Positions 4,921 to 52,090 of a stretch of 64,000 nucleotides of DNA are shown in pieces (position 1 is the stretch's first letter; each line of letters begins with the position of its first letter). The stretch covers positions 2,766,309 through 2,830,308 of the forward strand of contig JAVKHP010000001.1 in NCBI GenBank assembly GCA_031459855.1. The letters run 5' to 3'. Source of the stretch: Armatimonadota bacterium. GTDB lineage: Bacteria > Sysuimicrobiota > Sysuimicrobiia > Sysuimicrobiales > Humicultoraceae. The notes beneath the pieces were generated by a model, which was not told the DNA's origin, searched no databases, and saw only the letters and a program-made list of their open reading frames with translations. The position numbers were made by a program, and so were the translations under genes.

Positions 4921-4946
4921 TTGCCCTGAACTCCTGCCGGCTAGAC
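4921..4946 (-). promoter_or_regulatory. SigB/SigF-type promoter of pilP-pilQ
   Basis: Minus strand GTCTAG (4941-4946), 14-nt spacer ending gagttca, GGGCAA (4921-4926). Both hexamers and the spacing are the same as before the sigma-factor gene (48653-48678). The transcript would have a leader of about 75 nt to ATG 4838. The rest of the gene-free stretch 4947-5168 holds only the repeats listed at 5033-5204. Confidence 0.65.
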
Positions 4947-38108: not shown

Positions 38109-38134
38109 CTGCCCAACTGCCGCACGCCCTAGAC
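38109..38134 (-). promoter_or_regulatory. SigB/SigF-type promoter of the major pilin
   Basis: Minus strand GTCTAG (38129-38134), 14-nt spacer ending cagtt, GGGCAG (38109-38114), in the 170-bp gap between pilC and the pilin. The leader is about 105 nt and ends in a strong Shine-Dalgarno (38008-38014). Confidence 0.6.
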
Positions 38135-47135: not shown

Positions 47136-47492
47136 CTAGACCAGCGCGGCGGCCAGCTGGCTGTTGCGCCGCATCTCGAGCCGGATGCGTCCCAGGTTCG
47201 CCTGCTTGCCGCCCACGACGACCAGCATCGCGTCGGGGCCAGCCGGCCCGATGGCCACGGGGCCCTCGTCGAACTCCAGGAGCAGGTTCCGGATGGTGCC
47301 GCGGACCATCTCACGGCCCATGGAGTCGGCGGCGGCGATGTTGCTGGCCACGATGGCACCCACAGCCTCCAGGTCCACGCTCTCCTCGCTGGTCACGCCT
47401 TCGACCACGAACCCGTCCCGGCTGACCACGAGCGCCGCCAGCACCCCGTCGACCTTGGCCAGGTCGGCCAGCACGTCCTTGAGCTGCGACAT
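47136..47492 (-). CDS. Roadblock/LC7 domain protein (MglB-like)
   Basis: A 118-residue single-domain protein: MSQLKDVLADLAKVDGVLAALVVSRDGFVVEG, then AVGAIVASNIAAADSMGREMV and LLVVVGG-type strands, the Roadblock fold. Family members regulate small Ras-like GTPases such as MglA that control polarity and T4P motility; no MglA is in the window. ATG 47492 is preferred to ATG 47498 because GGAGG is 8 nt upstream. It is 65 bp after the sigma-factor gene, in the same transcript. Confidence 0.9.
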   Translation of the reverse strand: MSQLKDVLADLAKVDGVLAALVVSRDGFVVEGVTSEESVDLEAVGAIVASNIAAADSMGREMVRGTIRNLLLEFDEGPVAIGPAGPDAMLVVVGGKQANLGRIRLEMRRNSQLAAALV

Positions 47493-47557
47493 TCCCATAC
47501 CCTCCTTCGCAAACCTCCGGCAGACTGCGCTCCGGGGCGAGGTCAGTGCGTCGTGCG

Positions 47558-48397
47558 CTAGATCACCTCCGACGAGGCCATGCCCATCACACCCCGCAAC
47601 TTGGCCAGCGCCGAGGCCAGCACGCGCGAGACGTGCTTCTGCGAGATGCCGATGCGCTTCGCGGCCTCGGTCTGGGTCAGGTCCGTGAAGAACAGGTAGT
47701 AGAGCACCTTCTTCTGCAGGCTGTTCAGCGACTCCATCGCCTCCAGCAGCAGGACGCGGTCCTCGATGGGGAGCTGGAAGCTGACGTGGGTGCGATGACG
47801 GATGCGCTCCCGGTCGACGCGCAGCTCGCCGCTCTCCTCGTCGGCCTCCAGCGCGATGGTCCGCAGCGCCTCCCGGGTCCGCAGCACCTCCAGCAGGCCC
47901 TCCTCCTCGATGTTCAGCTCGGCGGCCAGCTCGTCGAGGCTGGGGAACCGACCTTCCTCGCTGATGTAGCGTCCGATGGTGTCCTCGATGCGGGCGTTGA
48001 CCTTCTGCAGCCACCGCGGCTTGCGGATCGTGTCACGCTGGTCGCGCAGGTAGTGGCGGATCTCGCCGCGGATCAGGTAGCTGGCGTACGTGGTGAACTT
48101 GGCCCCGCGGGTGGGATCGAAGGCCGCGATGGCGTTCAACAGCCCGAGGTAGCCGACCTGCACGATGTCCTCCGTGGGCACCCCGGAGAAGACGAACTCG
48201 GCGGCGATGCGCCGGACCAGCGGGGTGCAGGCCAGCACGACCCGCTCCCGGATGGCCGGGTCGCGGGTCCGTGCGTACTCCTGCATGAGCGCTTCCTCAT
48301 CGTCGTGGGTGCGCTGCGCCTGGTGTCCGGCGCCCGTGCGGTTCGCGCGGTGTGGCCGCGCTTCGGGTGTCGCATTCTCTCCGCTGCGCCCGCGCAT
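47558..48397 (-). CDS. Group 3 sigma-70 factor, SigB/SigF/SigG type
   Basis: A 279-residue sigma factor. After a basic 35-residue N-terminus come region 2 (EDIVQVGYLGLLNAIAAFDPTRGAKFTTYASYLIRGEIRHYLRDQRD), region 3 (ERRFPSLDELAAELNI-like helix-turn-helix) and region 4 (NSLQKKVLYYLFFTDLTQTEAAKRIGISQKHVSRVLASALAKL). Region 1.1 is absent, as in group 3 factors. ATG 48397 has GGGAGG 8 nt upstream, which fixes the start. Its transcript begins at a SigB-type promoter and carries a c-di-GMP-I riboswitch with terminator, so it appears autoregulated and ligand-controlled. No anti-sigma factor is adjacent. Confidence 0.93.
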   Translation of the reverse strand: MRGRSGENATPEARPHRANRTGAGHQAQRTHDDEEALMQEYARTRDPAIRERVVLACTPLVRRIAAEFVFSGVPTEDIVQVGYLGLLNAIAAFDPTRGAKFTTYASYLIRGEIRHYLRDQRDTIRKPRWLQKVNARIEDTIGRYISEEGRFPSLDELAAELNIEEEGLLEVLRTREALRTIALEADEESGELRVDRERIRHRTHVSFQLPIEDRVLLLEAMESLNSLQKKVLYYLFFTDLTQTEAAKRIGISQKHVSRVLASALAKLRGVMGMASSEVI

Positions 48398-48444
48398 CGT
48401 GCGGCCTCCCCGTGGCCTCTGGCCTCGTGCGGCACCCGTCCCCG

Positions 48445-48483: not shown

Positions 48484-48568
48484 ACGGTGCATCCCTTCGG
48501 CAGCCCGGCCAACCCTCTAGGTCCCGTAGCTTTGCGCCCCCACCTTGCGGTGGGTTTGCCTTGTTCGG
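48484..48568 (-). ncRNA. Cyclic di-GMP-I (GEMM) riboswitch before the sigma factor
   Basis: Minus strand: GGCAAACCC, a hairpin with a GCAA tetraloop (CCACC-GCAA-GGTGG), then GGCGCAAAGC leading into the second stem, ending CTGCCGAAGGG. These are the conserved GEMM-I elements: the GGCAAACC strand, the GNRA tetraloop that docks into the second helix, and GCGCAAAGC. The direction matches the sigma-factor gene 87 nt further on. Whether c-di-GMP turns the gene on or off cannot be read from sequence with certainty. Confidence 0.9.
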
Positions 48569-48652
48569 GGATCGGTATGCACTTGTGGCGGACGGTCGCT
48601 GCACGCAGTACAGTCCGCCCAGAACATTGCCGCAAGCTCTCGGTAAAGAACT

Positions 48653-48678
48653 TTGCCCAGAACTCCGGACGGCTAGAC
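48653..48678 (-). promoter_or_regulatory. SigB/SigF-type promoter of the riboswitch-sigma factor operon
   Basis: Minus strand GTCTAG (48673-48678), 14-nt spacer ending gagttct, GGGCAA (48653-48658). Hexamers and spacing are identical to the pilP site. Transcription from about 48646 would reach the aptamer after about 80 nt; that interval contains a further hairpin (GGCGGAC/GTCCGCC). The sigma factor may thus activate its own gene. Confidence 0.65.
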
Positions 48679-48703: not shown

Positions 48704-49669
48704 TCAGCGCCGCGGCGCGCCCGCCGGTGGCCGCGCCCGGACGACGTAGCGGAACGCGAGCCGGCGCGCCACGAGCACGTCGAGCACGGCGGCGAGCTGC
48801 GTGCCGGGCAGCCCGCTGGCCGCGGCGACCTCGGCCAGGGTGCGCCCGCCGTCCAGGTATGGCAGCACCGCGAGCGGGTCGATCCCGGCTGCGGCGACGA
48901 TCTCGGCGCGCACGTCATCGGGCAGTGTGGCGTCGATACCGCGGGCGCGCAGGAAGCGCGCGTCCGGCGAGAAGCGACCGAACGTGGCCTCGCCGGGCGG
49001 CGCAGCGGGCGGCGGTGCCTCGGGCGCCACGGCGTCCGCAGACGGCGCGGCGGCGGCCGGCAGCACAGCGTCGTGCCCTGGCGCCGGTGGGTCCACGCTG
49101 GCGTGGCTTGGGACCTCCACGCCGGTCGCGCCGTCGGCCGGGGCGCCCGCGGGTACCGGGACCGGCGCGGCCTCTGGCGCGGGCGACGCGGCGGGCGTCT
49201 CCTGCCCCGGCGGGGGCGCCGGGGCACGCATGCGGCCCGCCAGGTGCACGATCCATCCTGCTGCGCGGTTGATCACAGCGTCCTCCGATGCGTCGGGGGC
49301 GGCGGGGTCGAAGGCGGTCACCGCGCCCTCGGCGATCACCAGGGCAGCGGGGTGCGCTCCGAGCACGAAGAGCACCGCGCTGCTCCCGTCGGCTTGCAGG
49401 CGCCGCACGAACCGCTCGAGGCGCACGAAATCGGTGTGCAGCGCGCCGCCGGCGAACTCCAGCTCCATGCACTGCGCCACCACGTCTTCGGGCAACGGTA
49501 GATGCGCCCGCGCCGCGCCCGGCGGCACGCTGGCCGCCGCCGAGCCGCCGGGCACGAGCTGCCAGCCCGCCGGCCCGAAGACGGCGCCGATGCCTGCTGC
49601 TGGAGTTTCGAATACCACCGCCAGGCCGCCCGGCCAGGTGTAGTGCGTGATACCCGCGCGACCGGTCAC
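48704..49669 (-). CDS. Unknown protein, second gene of the riboswitch-2 operon
   Basis: A 321-residue soluble protein with three parts: an N-terminal alpha/beta domain (about 1-150: GGLAVVFETPAAGIGAVFGPAGW, DGSSAVLFVLGAHPAALVIAEGAVTAFDP), a Pro/Ala linker (155-225), and a C-terminal helical domain (about 230-315: LAEVAAASGLPGTQLAAVLDVLVARRLAFRYV) that looks like a winged helix. I do not recognise a family; the N-terminal part recalls DUF4388/Roadblock-type sensory folds. It starts at GTG 49669, overlapping the upstream gene (GTGA). Confidence 0.7.
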   Translation of the reverse strand: MTGRAGITHYTWPGGLAVVFETPAAGIGAVFGPAGWQLVPGGSAAASVPPGAARAHLPLPEDVVAQCMELEFAGGALHTDFVRLERFVRRLQADGSSAVLFVLGAHPAALVIAEGAVTAFDPAAPDASEDAVINRAAGWIVHLAGRMRAPAPPPGQETPAASPAPEAAPVPVPAGAPADGATGVEVPSHASVDPPAPGHDAVLPAAAAPSADAVAPEAPPPAAPPGEATFGRFSPDARFLRARGIDATLPDDVRAEIVAAAGIDPLAVLPYLDGGRTLAEVAAASGLPGTQLAAVLDVLVARRLAFRYVVRARPPAGAPRR

Positions 49670-50439
49670 CGCCCCTCACCGGCGCCGCTGGTCTGCCGCA
49701 ACGCGTGTTCCGCCGCCGCGATCTGGGCATCGACGAAGCCCCGTCCCACCACGGCGACGATCGACGCGCAGGCGGTCTCGACGATGCGCCGCCACGTCGC
49801 CTCGGGGAGCGGCGGCGCCACGACCCGGCCGTCTTCGACGCGGCCGCCGTGCGGTGCCAGCGCCCGCTCGAGCGAGGCCAAGAACCGGCTGGCGAGCTTG
49901 CGACCCCGCAGACGCGCCAGCCGCTCGACGAAGAGACTCAGGATCTCGGGCCAGGGATGGGGAGGAGGTTCCATCGTGACCGTCGTGCCGGCGGGGACCG
50001 CACGGTTGCCACCCTGCGGCGGCATCCCCCCAGGTGCCGTACCCGTGCGCGCTGCCGCGGCCACGCGCTGCGCGGCGTCGGGCGTCTCCTCGGCCGCACG
50101 GTCGCCGGTCGCCGCCGGCCCGGCTGGCAGCGGCGGCAGGCCGACGACCACCGACAGCGTCCCGCCGCGCGACGCCACCTGGCGCAGGAGATCGCGTCCC
50201 GCCGCAGCCGGCAGCACGGCTTCGGTCCCCGTCGCCTCGAAGAACCACGACTCCTGCGGCGCGCCGTCGTGGATCCACAGCACGGCGTCCGTCTCCGGGT
50301 CGGCGATCGAGACGCCACCTTCGAAGCCGCGGGCCACCAGGTGCGCGATGAGCGCGTCGAGATCGACGGCGTCGGCGGGCACGCCGGCGATCAGAGCCGG
50401 GCCCGTGCGCGCGGTCTCCAGCGCGGTGCGACGATTCAC
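49666..50439 (-). CDS. Unknown protein, first gene of the riboswitch-2 operon
   Basis: A 257-residue soluble protein. The N-terminal 115 residues form an alpha/beta unit (LDALIAHLVARGFEGGVSIADPETDAVLWIHDG, then DLLRQVASRGGTLSVVVGLPP), resembling the N-terminal part of the next gene's product, so the two may be diverged relatives. A disordered linker and a helical C-terminal part (LSLFVERLARLRGRKLASRFLASLERAL, IVETACASIVAVVGRGFVDAQIAAAEHAL) follow. GTG 50439 has AGGAAGG 4-5 nt upstream. No known family. Control by c-di-GMP is inferred from the aptamer in its leader. Confidence 0.72.
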   Translation of the reverse strand: MNRRTALETARTGPALIAGVPADAVDLDALIAHLVARGFEGGVSIADPETDAVLWIHDGAPQESWFFEATGTEAVLPAAAGRDLLRQVASRGGTLSVVVGLPPLPAGPAATGDRAAEETPDAAQRVAAAARTGTAPGGMPPQGGNRAVPAGTTVTMEPPPHPWPEILSLFVERLARLRGRKLASRFLASLERALAPHGGRVEDGRVVAPPLPEATWRRIVETACASIVAVVGRGFVDAQIAAAEHALRQTSGAGEGR

Positions 50440-50500
50440 GGCCTGCCTTCCTGCGGGGGTGCGGTACGCGGACGCCGCACGATGCGGCGCGGGCTTCCAC

Positions 50501-50522
50501 CCTAGCGCGAACCTAGCGCGAA
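50501..50522. repeat. 11-bp perfect tandem duplication
   Basis: cctagcgcgaa occurs twice in a row just after the riboswitch-2 hairpin on the minus strand, about 60 nt before GTG 50439. Confidence 0.6.
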
Positions 50523-50549
50523 GGCCCTCCGGCCACAAGCCGAAGGGCC
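50523..50549 (-). terminator. Hairpin after riboswitch 2
   Basis: GGCCCTTCGGC pairs with GCCGGAGGGCC over a 5-nt loop, with one G-U pair, directly after the aptamer on the minus strand. There is no U-tract, so it may act with Rho or on translation rather than as a simple intrinsic terminator. Confidence 0.5.
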
Positions 50550-50552
50550 CAC

Positions 50553-50648
50553 CTGGCTCCTCTTCGGCAACCCGGCCGGCCGCACGGCACCCCGCGCGCC
50601 CCCGTCGGCTTTGCGCCCCCACCTCGCGATGGGTTTGCCCGTTCGGAG
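50553..50648 (-). ncRNA. Second cyclic di-GMP-I (GEMM) riboswitch
   Basis: Minus strand: GGGCAAACCC, hairpin CATC-GCGA-GGTG with a GNRA loop, GGCGCAAAGCC, a longer second stem (GACGGGGGCG...), then GGTTGCCGAAGAGG. The conserved positions are the same as in the aptamer at 48484-48568. It precedes the two-gene operon 50439-48704 by about 115 nt. Confidence 0.88.
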
Positions 50649-50695
50649 GTGACACGTACCGGCCCTCGCCGGCACGCGGATGTCCACTTCCCTGT

Positions 50696-50721
50696 GTACC
50701 CCGCGGCGGCTTCGCCTAGAC
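50696..50721 (-). promoter_or_regulatory. SigB/SigF-type promoter of the riboswitch-2 operon
   Basis: Minus strand GTCTAG (50716-50721), 14-nt spacer, GGGTAC (50696-50701), the copy closest to the Bacillus SigB -10 (GGGTAT). The transcript enters the aptamer about 40 nt later. It lies just after the transglycosylase gene on the same strand. Confidence 0.6.
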
Positions 50722-50768: not shown

Positions 50769-51734
50769 TCAGAGGGCGAGCAAGCGCCGGTAGAGGCTCG
50801 CGACGTTGAAGACGTACCAGCGGGTCTCGTCGTAGGGCGGAATGCCCTGGTAACGCTCGACCGCGCCGCGCCCCGCGTTGTACGCGGCAAGCGCCAGGTG
50901 CAGATTCTCCCACCCGAAGCGGTCGAGGTTGCCGCGCAGGTAGCGAATCGTCCCGTACAGGTTCTGCACGGGATCATCGGGGTCGACGCCGAGCGCCCGC
51001 GCCGTCTCGGGCATGAGCTGGCCCAGCCCGATGGCGCCGGCACGGGACCGCGCCCGCACCTGAAACCCCGACTCCACCGCCACCAGCGCCACCACCAGCC
51101 GCGGGTCGATGTTGAACACCCGGCTGTAGCCCAGCAGCGCCTCGCCGATGCGGCGCGCCTCCTCCAGCCCCAGACGGGGGTTGTAGTGGCGCGCGAACGC
51201 CTGGTACGTCGCGGCCTCGGTCACCCATCGGACGACGGGGCCGCGCATCGCTGCCTGCGGCAGCGGGCTGATGGCACGCAGGGCCTGCCGGGCCATGTCG
51301 TGGACCGCCGGGCTGGCGGGCAGCAGCAGTACCCGGCGGAACGCGATCTGGGCGACCTGGGGCCGACCGGCCTGCAGCTGCGCGTAGCCGAGCCACAGCA
51401 GCGCCGCTGCATCGCGCGGCTGCCGTCGCGTCACGTAGTCGAACGCCTGGACTGCCCCCTGCATGTCGCCCCGATGGTACCGGATCGCGCCAAGCCACAA
51501 CCACCCGTGCGGGTCCGCGGGCCGCGCCCGCAGTGCGCGGGTCACCGCACCCTCGGCGGCATCCAGACGGCCCGCGCGAAACAGGCGCGCGCCCTCCTGC
51601 AGCGCAGCAACGTGCGCTGTCGGCGCGGGTCGTCCGGCGACGGGGTCGAGGCCGGCGGCACGCGCCGGGGTCACCAGCCCGACGAGGACGACCAGCGCGA
51701 GGACCCCCGCGCCCGGTGTCCCGCGGAGCGTCAT
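50769..51734 (-). CDS. Exported TPR protein with lytic transglycosylase (SLT) domain
   Basis: A 321-residue periplasmic enzyme. Signal peptide ([16 protein letters not shown]), two or three TPR units (about 40-140), then the SLT domain (about 185-315): [18 protein letters not shown] with the catalytic Glu, [34 protein letters not shown] and [25 protein letters not shown]. It cleaves the glycan strands of peptidoglycan, plausibly to make room for the pilus machine. Its start overlaps the end of the second LC7 gene by 4 bp. Confidence 0.9.
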
Positions 51735-52090
51735 GCCAGCTGCTCCGTGATCTCGGCCTTGCGCCGGCGGATCTGCAACCGTGCGCGCGCGACGTTGCCG
51801 CCCGCGTCCAGCACCGTGGCGAGGTAGTGCTGCTGCCCCATGGCCACCACGAGCACCGACAGGCTGTCGGTGGTGAGCGTGATGAAGTCGAGTTCGCCGC
51901 CGTCCAGCTTGCGGATGCAGTAGGCCCCCACCTTCACCAGCGCCGCCAGGTCCGCGCTGACCCGCGTCAGGTCGGCGGCGCCGCCCTTGGTCACCGCCTC
52001 GACGACGTCGCCGTCCATGCTGAGCACTGCGGCTGCTCGCGTATCGTCGCCGACCAGCTCCTGCAGGATCCCGCGCAGCCTCGTGCCCAT
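51731..52090 (-). CDS. Second Roadblock/LC7 domain protein
   Basis: A 119-residue protein of the Roadblock fold: [73 protein letters not shown]. It resembles the LC7 protein at 47136 only in fold. Start is ATG 52090 without a Shine-Dalgarno, or GTG 52135. The only AT-rich stretch of the 112-bp divergent gap (52099-52112) lies immediately upstream and may be its -10 region. Confidence 0.85.

Follow-up and report, generated by a model that had tools for sequence, protein, structure and literature searches.

Class I c-di-GMP riboswitches exist as both ON and OFF types across species, and those of C. difficile are OFF switches (PMC6366702). One of the latter, Cd1, acts by termination and heads the flgB operon, which contains sigD (PMC6366702). 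The locus analyzed here, part of a 64,000-nt stretch of DNA (the window), likewise places a class I riboswitch over an operon making an alternative sigma factor, but this factor is of the SigB/F/G type and tied to type IV pili rather than flagella. A separate operon, encoding two proteins referred to here as P1 and P2, is under the control of a second riboswitch that lies behind the same promoter pattern (Table 1). The P1-P2 leader shares the full-length model match, conserved core and leader position of known c-di-GMP-I (GEMM-I) riboswitches (RF01051/RF03167) and has a putative terminator-type platform like that of Cd1; it differs from them in standing in tandem with a sigma-factor operon that is led by an aptamer of its own. 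A literature search found no description of P1/P2, or of the larger PBP-TAXI-P1-M-P2 set described below, as cargo of a c-di-GMP-I riboswitch. The riboswitch class is already known, and what is new is the cargo and the wiring.

A second point of comparison is the MglA/MglB polarity system of pili and gliding (PMC9481161), since P1-like genes of other phyla lie beside genes for a Roadblock protein and an MglA-like GTPase. In the window locus, two Roadblock genes adjoin those for type IV pili, and Roadblock proteins adjoin pilus genes in the phylum, although a single-sequence query at E 1e-5, run without an in-phylum positive control, recovered no MglA-like GTPase from the 43 phylum genomes. The window's genome (3.19 Mb, 4 contigs) belongs, as judged from named relatives, to CSP1-3, now Sysuimicrobiota, a poorly studied, uncultured bacterial phylum of soil and groundwater. 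Our literature search returned no paper dealing with either riboswitches or pili of the phylum, and the phylum description is silent on both.

Table 1. Features of the P1-P2 and sigma-factor operons and their neighbors, in window coordinates.
Feature	Position	Strand	Match or remark
Roadblock/LC7 protein (second), upstream neighbor	51731..52090	-	PF03259, E 2.2e-5
TPR + SLT lytic transglycosylase	50769..51734	-	PF01464, E 1.7e-20
Promoter-like GTCTAG-N14-GGGTA (GTCTAGGCGAAGCCGCCGCGGGGTA)	50697..50721	-	SigB/SigF-type spacing; one of 10 genome matches to GTCTAR-N14-GGGYA
c-di-GMP-I (GEMM-I) aptamer, P1-P2 operon leader	50563..50649	-	RF01051, 44.2 bits, full length
Hairpin, putative terminator (GGCCCUUCGGCUUGUGGCCGGAGGGCC)	50523..50549	-	Homologous hairpins in relatives
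P1, 257 aa, cytoplasmic	49666..50439	-	N-terminal alpha/beta domain (remotely DUF4388-like) and C-terminal helical domain
P2, 321 aa, cytoplasmic	48704..49669	-	P1-like domain, proline/alanine linker and winged helix (HTH_47/PqqD-like)
Promoter-like GTCTAG-N14-GGGCA before sigma leader	48654..48678	-	Genome 2814962-2814986
c-di-GMP-I aptamer (first), sigma-gene leader	48495..48569	-	RF03167 (c-di-GMP-I-GGC model), 71.4 bits
SigB/SigF/SigG-type sigma factor	47558..48400	-	TIGR02980, E 3.6e-52
Roadblock/LC7 protein, 3' of sigma gene	47136..47498	-	PF03259, E 4.1e-17

An earlier sequence-only reading of this DNA had proposed a second GEMM-I aptamer ahead of P1, and the covariance model bears this out: the cmscan match to RF01051 is full length and exceeds the Rfam gathering score of 35 bits, with an E of 2.3e-5 over 64 kb and no non-standard pairs flagged. 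All three conserved segments (GGCAAACC, GCGCAAAGC and UGCCGAA) are intact, and the cmscan alignment, with GGCAAACC, GCGCAAAG and UGCCGAA present, contains the nucleotides known to contact c-di-GMP (G20, A47 and C92 in Vc2 numbering). Because the conserved core segments are intact, the aptamer is expected to be specific for c-di-GMP. Its score is below that of most aptamers of the phylum. A homologous aptamer precedes the P1-P2 block in nine relatives; with the window's own genome, this makes 10 of the 10 family genomes in which a contig spans the position. At the level of sequence, the P1-P2 leader is thus confirmed as carrying a genuine c-di-GMP-I aptamer, a further example of the known class.

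All 43 phylum genomes examined contain c-di-GMP-I aptamers, and the window's genome has seven. Outside the window, two aptamers (L011 5680-5760 and 13225-13302, genome C1 near 1933679 and 1941224) each head a copy of a minor-pilin operon, and the GTCTAG-N14-GGGCA promoter is present at one of the two. Another (L008 5521-5595), with the same promoter pattern, heads an operon for a histidine kinase, a response regulator/GGDEF protein and a CBS/GGDEF protein, where a c-di-GMP feedback loop is possible. Aptamers also lie upstream of a GH42-like glycosidase gene (L009 5313-5389) and of a Fur-like/zinc-transport gene cluster (L010 5452-5534).

The SigB-type promoter proposed ahead of the aptamer corresponds to a promoter-like GTCTAG-N14-GGGTA element 47 nt upstream of it, within the span first described. 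GTCTAR-N14-GGGYA has 10 exact matches in the genome (the reversed-pattern control has 7), and four of them lie within ~110 nt upstream of one of the seven aptamers, against a chance expectation of ~0.002 (ten sites, 6.4 Mb of strand, within 150 nt of seven aptamers). These four precede P1/P2, the sigma gene, the histidine kinase/GGDEF operon and one of the two minor-pilin operons, and most relatives in the window's family carry G[TA]CTAR...GGG at a similar spot upstream of the block aptamer. The pattern is common to the presumed regulon, and the neighboring sigma factor, for which TIGR02980 is the best family even though its score of 177 bits falls below the curated 234, may use the site ahead of P1-P2. 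A fifth match (window 38110-38134, minus strand) is at a pilin gene directly 3' of pilC, and a sixth (window 4922-4946, minus strand) is upstream of PilP-like/PilQ genes; the PilQ near 4922 was confirmed as a secretin with an AMIN domain.

Both a hairpin and a mutually exclusive antiterminator pairing were found in the window leader. The hairpin, which had also been noticed in the sequence, lacks a U-run and runs instead into UUCGCGCUAGG, a tandem repeat of 11 nt, whereas U-rich tails follow the homologous hairpins in several relatives, G006 among them; without a U-run, the strength of the window terminator is uncertain and termination may be weak or absent. The repeat consists of two perfect copies of TTCGCGCTAGG (window 50501-50522, minus strand) immediately 3' of the hairpin, in the place expected for the U-run. 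In all 10 block leaders of the window's family a strong hairpin lies 3' of the aptamer, and in all 10 the aptamer 3' end (CCGGGUUGCCGAAGGGG or similar) can pair with the 5' arm of that hairpin at -21 to -28.5 kcal/mol, a duplex matched by 0.5-12% of shuffles and hence strong for some leaders and modest for others, the leaders being related. The sigma leaders of the family have the same pairing architecture with different hairpin sequences. Two-sided changes affect two pairs of the terminator and one of the antiterminator, the latter a compensatory C-G to U-A change in two genomes (G002 and G008).

Since the alternative pairing consumes nucleotides of the ligand-bound fold, c-di-GMP should favor termination, and by this architecture it most likely turns the block genes OFF. 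An ON switch, in which c-di-GMP would promote read-through and so activate both the block and the sigma/pilus genes, in the manner of the class II switch that acts on C. difficile pili, seems rather unlikely given that the 3' nucleotides of the ligand-bound fold are used in the alternative pairing in essentially all leaders of the family, at both aptamers. It would nevertheless agree with the frequent promotion of pili and adhesion by c-di-GMP and with the existence of class I ON switches such as Bc2 (PMC6366702). For the OFF switch that we favor, the aptamer 3' end would pair with the 5' arm of the terminator when c-di-GMP is low, allowing RNA polymerase to read through, and the sigma factor and P1/P2 would be made together; when c-di-GMP is high, the stabilized aptamer would leave the hairpin free to form and transcription would stop.

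In 18 genomes, P1 and P2 homologs keep their place in the sigma-Roadblock-pilus locus; these genomes belong to the window's own family (f1, 11 genomes) and its sister (f4, 7 genomes), and the relatives show that the operon was larger than the two genes originally described. In f1 the order is aptamer-PBP-TAXI-P1-M-P2-aptamer-sigma-Roadblock-pilus genes, with up to five genes in the operon: a Peripla_BP_6 branched-chain-type solute receptor (PBP), a TAXI receptor (TIGR02122, E 9.5e-104), P1, M and P2. M is a membrane protein of six to seven helices, similar to the membrane-bound input portion of GGDEF proteins from another family, f2, and it gave nothing credible against Pfam and PDB. All five genes are present in 5 f1 relatives and P1-M-P2 in 4 genomes of one genus, while the upstream part could not be counted in G004, whose contig begins within the TAXI gene. 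In the window genome P1-P2 stand alone, PBP and TAXI being gone from the operon and M absent from a search across the genome. Judged from these gene orders, the two-gene operon is a reduced form of a five-gene module; the sequence-only reading was thus right in direction and incomplete, having missed this origin. The promoter-aptamer-gene unit, whose conservation in relatives it had named as a check, is conserved as to the aptamer (every covered f1 genome) and mostly as to the promoter, but its gene content varies.

The sister family separates the genes from their riboswitch. Its order, transglycosylase-PBP-TAXI-P1-M-P2-sigma-Roadblock, is the same as in f1, and a c-di-GMP-I aptamer at gathering score is absent from both leader places in the 7 genomes, two of which have the locus on split or short contigs. 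Because f4 keeps the genes without the aptamer, the riboswitch is not an obligatory partner of the P1/P2 block, and the proposed link of these genes to c-di-GMP comes close to failing there, while their link to pili holds. Conversely, P1, M and P2 are absent as a block from f2, f5 and f7, where, as in f1, an aptamer precedes the orthologous sigma gene, usually directly upstream. PilT-like ATPase genes lie between the aptamer and the sigma gene in two f7 genomes (L147, L148); across these two and the f5 genome L146, such genes occupy the aptamer-sigma slot or an aptamer-led operon of their own. The transglycosylase is constantly found upstream, next to either the block or the sigma leader. The simplest history would be an old sigma-gene riboswitch, followed by arrival of the PBP-to-P2 block between the transglycosylase and the sigma gene, gain of the second aptamer in f1 and loss of the aptamers in f4.

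P1 begins with a GTG codon at 50439 preceded by AGGAAGG, and its stop overlaps the P2 start in GTGA. The earlier description of two soluble proteins holds in size and character: neither has a signal peptide or membrane helix, except for one borderline stretch in P2 that falls inside the folded alpha/beta domain in the structure model. P1 matches no family in Pfam or NCBIfam, and P2 received no assignment beyond a weak winged-helix match, but the two, described earlier as of no recognized family, share a remotely DUF4388-like domain. The AlphaFold model of P1 has a pLDDT of 82.5, exceeding 90 across most of both domains, and that of P2 shows a P1-related domain, a disordered linker and a winged helix; profile comparison aligned the P1-like domain of P2 with P1 at probability 94 (E 1.3e-7). 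P1 matched no solved structure, and Foldseek of the two models against PDB gave nothing significant overall, with only the winged helix of P2 finding a match; hits to gyrase B and the sliding clamp were rejected at TM-scores near 0.1-0.2. The C-terminus of P2 matches the PqqD-containing chain 5vrd (E 0.0022) and the wHTH of 3k9t (Foldseek probability 0.99), and scores 15.9 bits against HTH_47, below the cut-off of 27.1 (best family member, E 7.8e-5). No PQQ or RiPP genes were identified beside P2.

The order beta-helix-four strands-helix-beta in the P1 N-terminal domain fits the DUF4388 (PF14332) pattern, whereas P1 and P2 themselves score under the cut-off of that family (the best weak match among members is E 0.0048, in f4) and have distinct C-terminal domains. 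Beyond the phylum, a deeper P1 profile retrieved P1-like proteins from six genomes, with E down to 5.6e-10, and both of the two that were scanned pass the DUF4388 cut-off. In three of the six genomes the P1-like gene shares its operon with genes for a Roadblock-type protein, an MglA-like GTPase and a membrane protein, the last with a HAMP domain where scanned. Moreover, DUF4388, a winged helix and the C-terminal domain of P1 are joined in a single 301-aa protein of another phylum (L187:5657-6559), a fusion suggesting that P1 and P2 work in concert. Within the phylum, DUF4388 matches over the cut-off were rejected as members, the proteins being PilB-type ATPases, and a weak resemblance between window gene 6134 and relatives of P1/P2 was put down to alanine/proline-linker noise. 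Through these intermediates, the P1 N-terminal domain, also found in P2, appears to be remotely DUF4388-like, which relates both proteins to components of the systems that control surface motility in bacteria.

We regard P1 and P2 as most likely being adaptors of this remote DUF4388 type through which signals reach the Roadblock/type IV pilus apparatus. A different role, regulation of the neighboring sigma factor as a replacement for an anti-sigma or partner-switch system, with the P2 winged helix as the contact and any pilus effect indirect, would account for the position of P2, which in f1 immediately precedes the sigma leader and in f4 is contiguous with the sigma gene, for the promoter pattern common to the two operons, and for the lack of an anti-sigma gene adjoining this SigB/F/G-type factor in the annotated neighborhood. 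We consider it unlikely, because the same sigma gene occurs without P1/P2 in f2, f5 and f7, and because the P1-like proteins outside the phylum accompany Roadblock and MglA, with no sigma gene recognized nearby in their partly annotated neighborhoods. That the window copy is a decaying remnant, left without present function after its terminator wore out and PBP, TAXI and M were lost, fits a genome without M, an operon without PBP and TAXI, a hairpin without a U-run and the comparatively low aptamer score, but is improbable, since P1 and P2 are intact with frames overlapping as in coupled genes, the promoter and aptamer core are intact, and the window copies are about as divergent from G006 as those of G003 (P1, 49.0 vs 48.3% identity; P2, 44.6 vs 47.0%), so that P1/P2 here evolve without clearly greater speed than in relatives with M.

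Taken together, the aptamer, the promoter pattern of the presumed regulon, the terminator/antiterminator pairing in relatives and the placement in a pilus locus argue for a riboswitch behind an alternative-sigma-type promoter, and we think it probable that it is an OFF switch controlling P1/P2 as the adaptor core of a five-gene module. P1 and P2 would form the cytoplasmic core of that module of two solute receptors, M, P1 and P2, and would pass on signals, from the receptors and M where these are present, to the Roadblock proteins and the type IV pilus; the window genome would have shed the receptors and M from the operon and retained P1 and P2. A broader and more speculative proposal, to which we give little weight, is that through the paired riboswitches c-di-GMP governs the whole surface-motility programme, acting via the sigma factor and via an MglA-independent sensory module that feeds Roadblock and the pilus and consists of the solute receptors, the DUF4388-like P1/P2, and M, which would be a free-standing relative of the input domain of a diguanylate cyclase.

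P1, M and P2 are concrete candidates for undescribed parts of a Roadblock/type IV pilus control system, and the sister families offer a natural comparison in which riboswitches are present, absent or left with reduced cargo. The combination of a sigma-factor riboswitch with a second riboswitch on a dedicated module, behind the same sigma-type promoter, would give these bacteria a compact feed-forward switching of the pilus programme by c-di-GMP.
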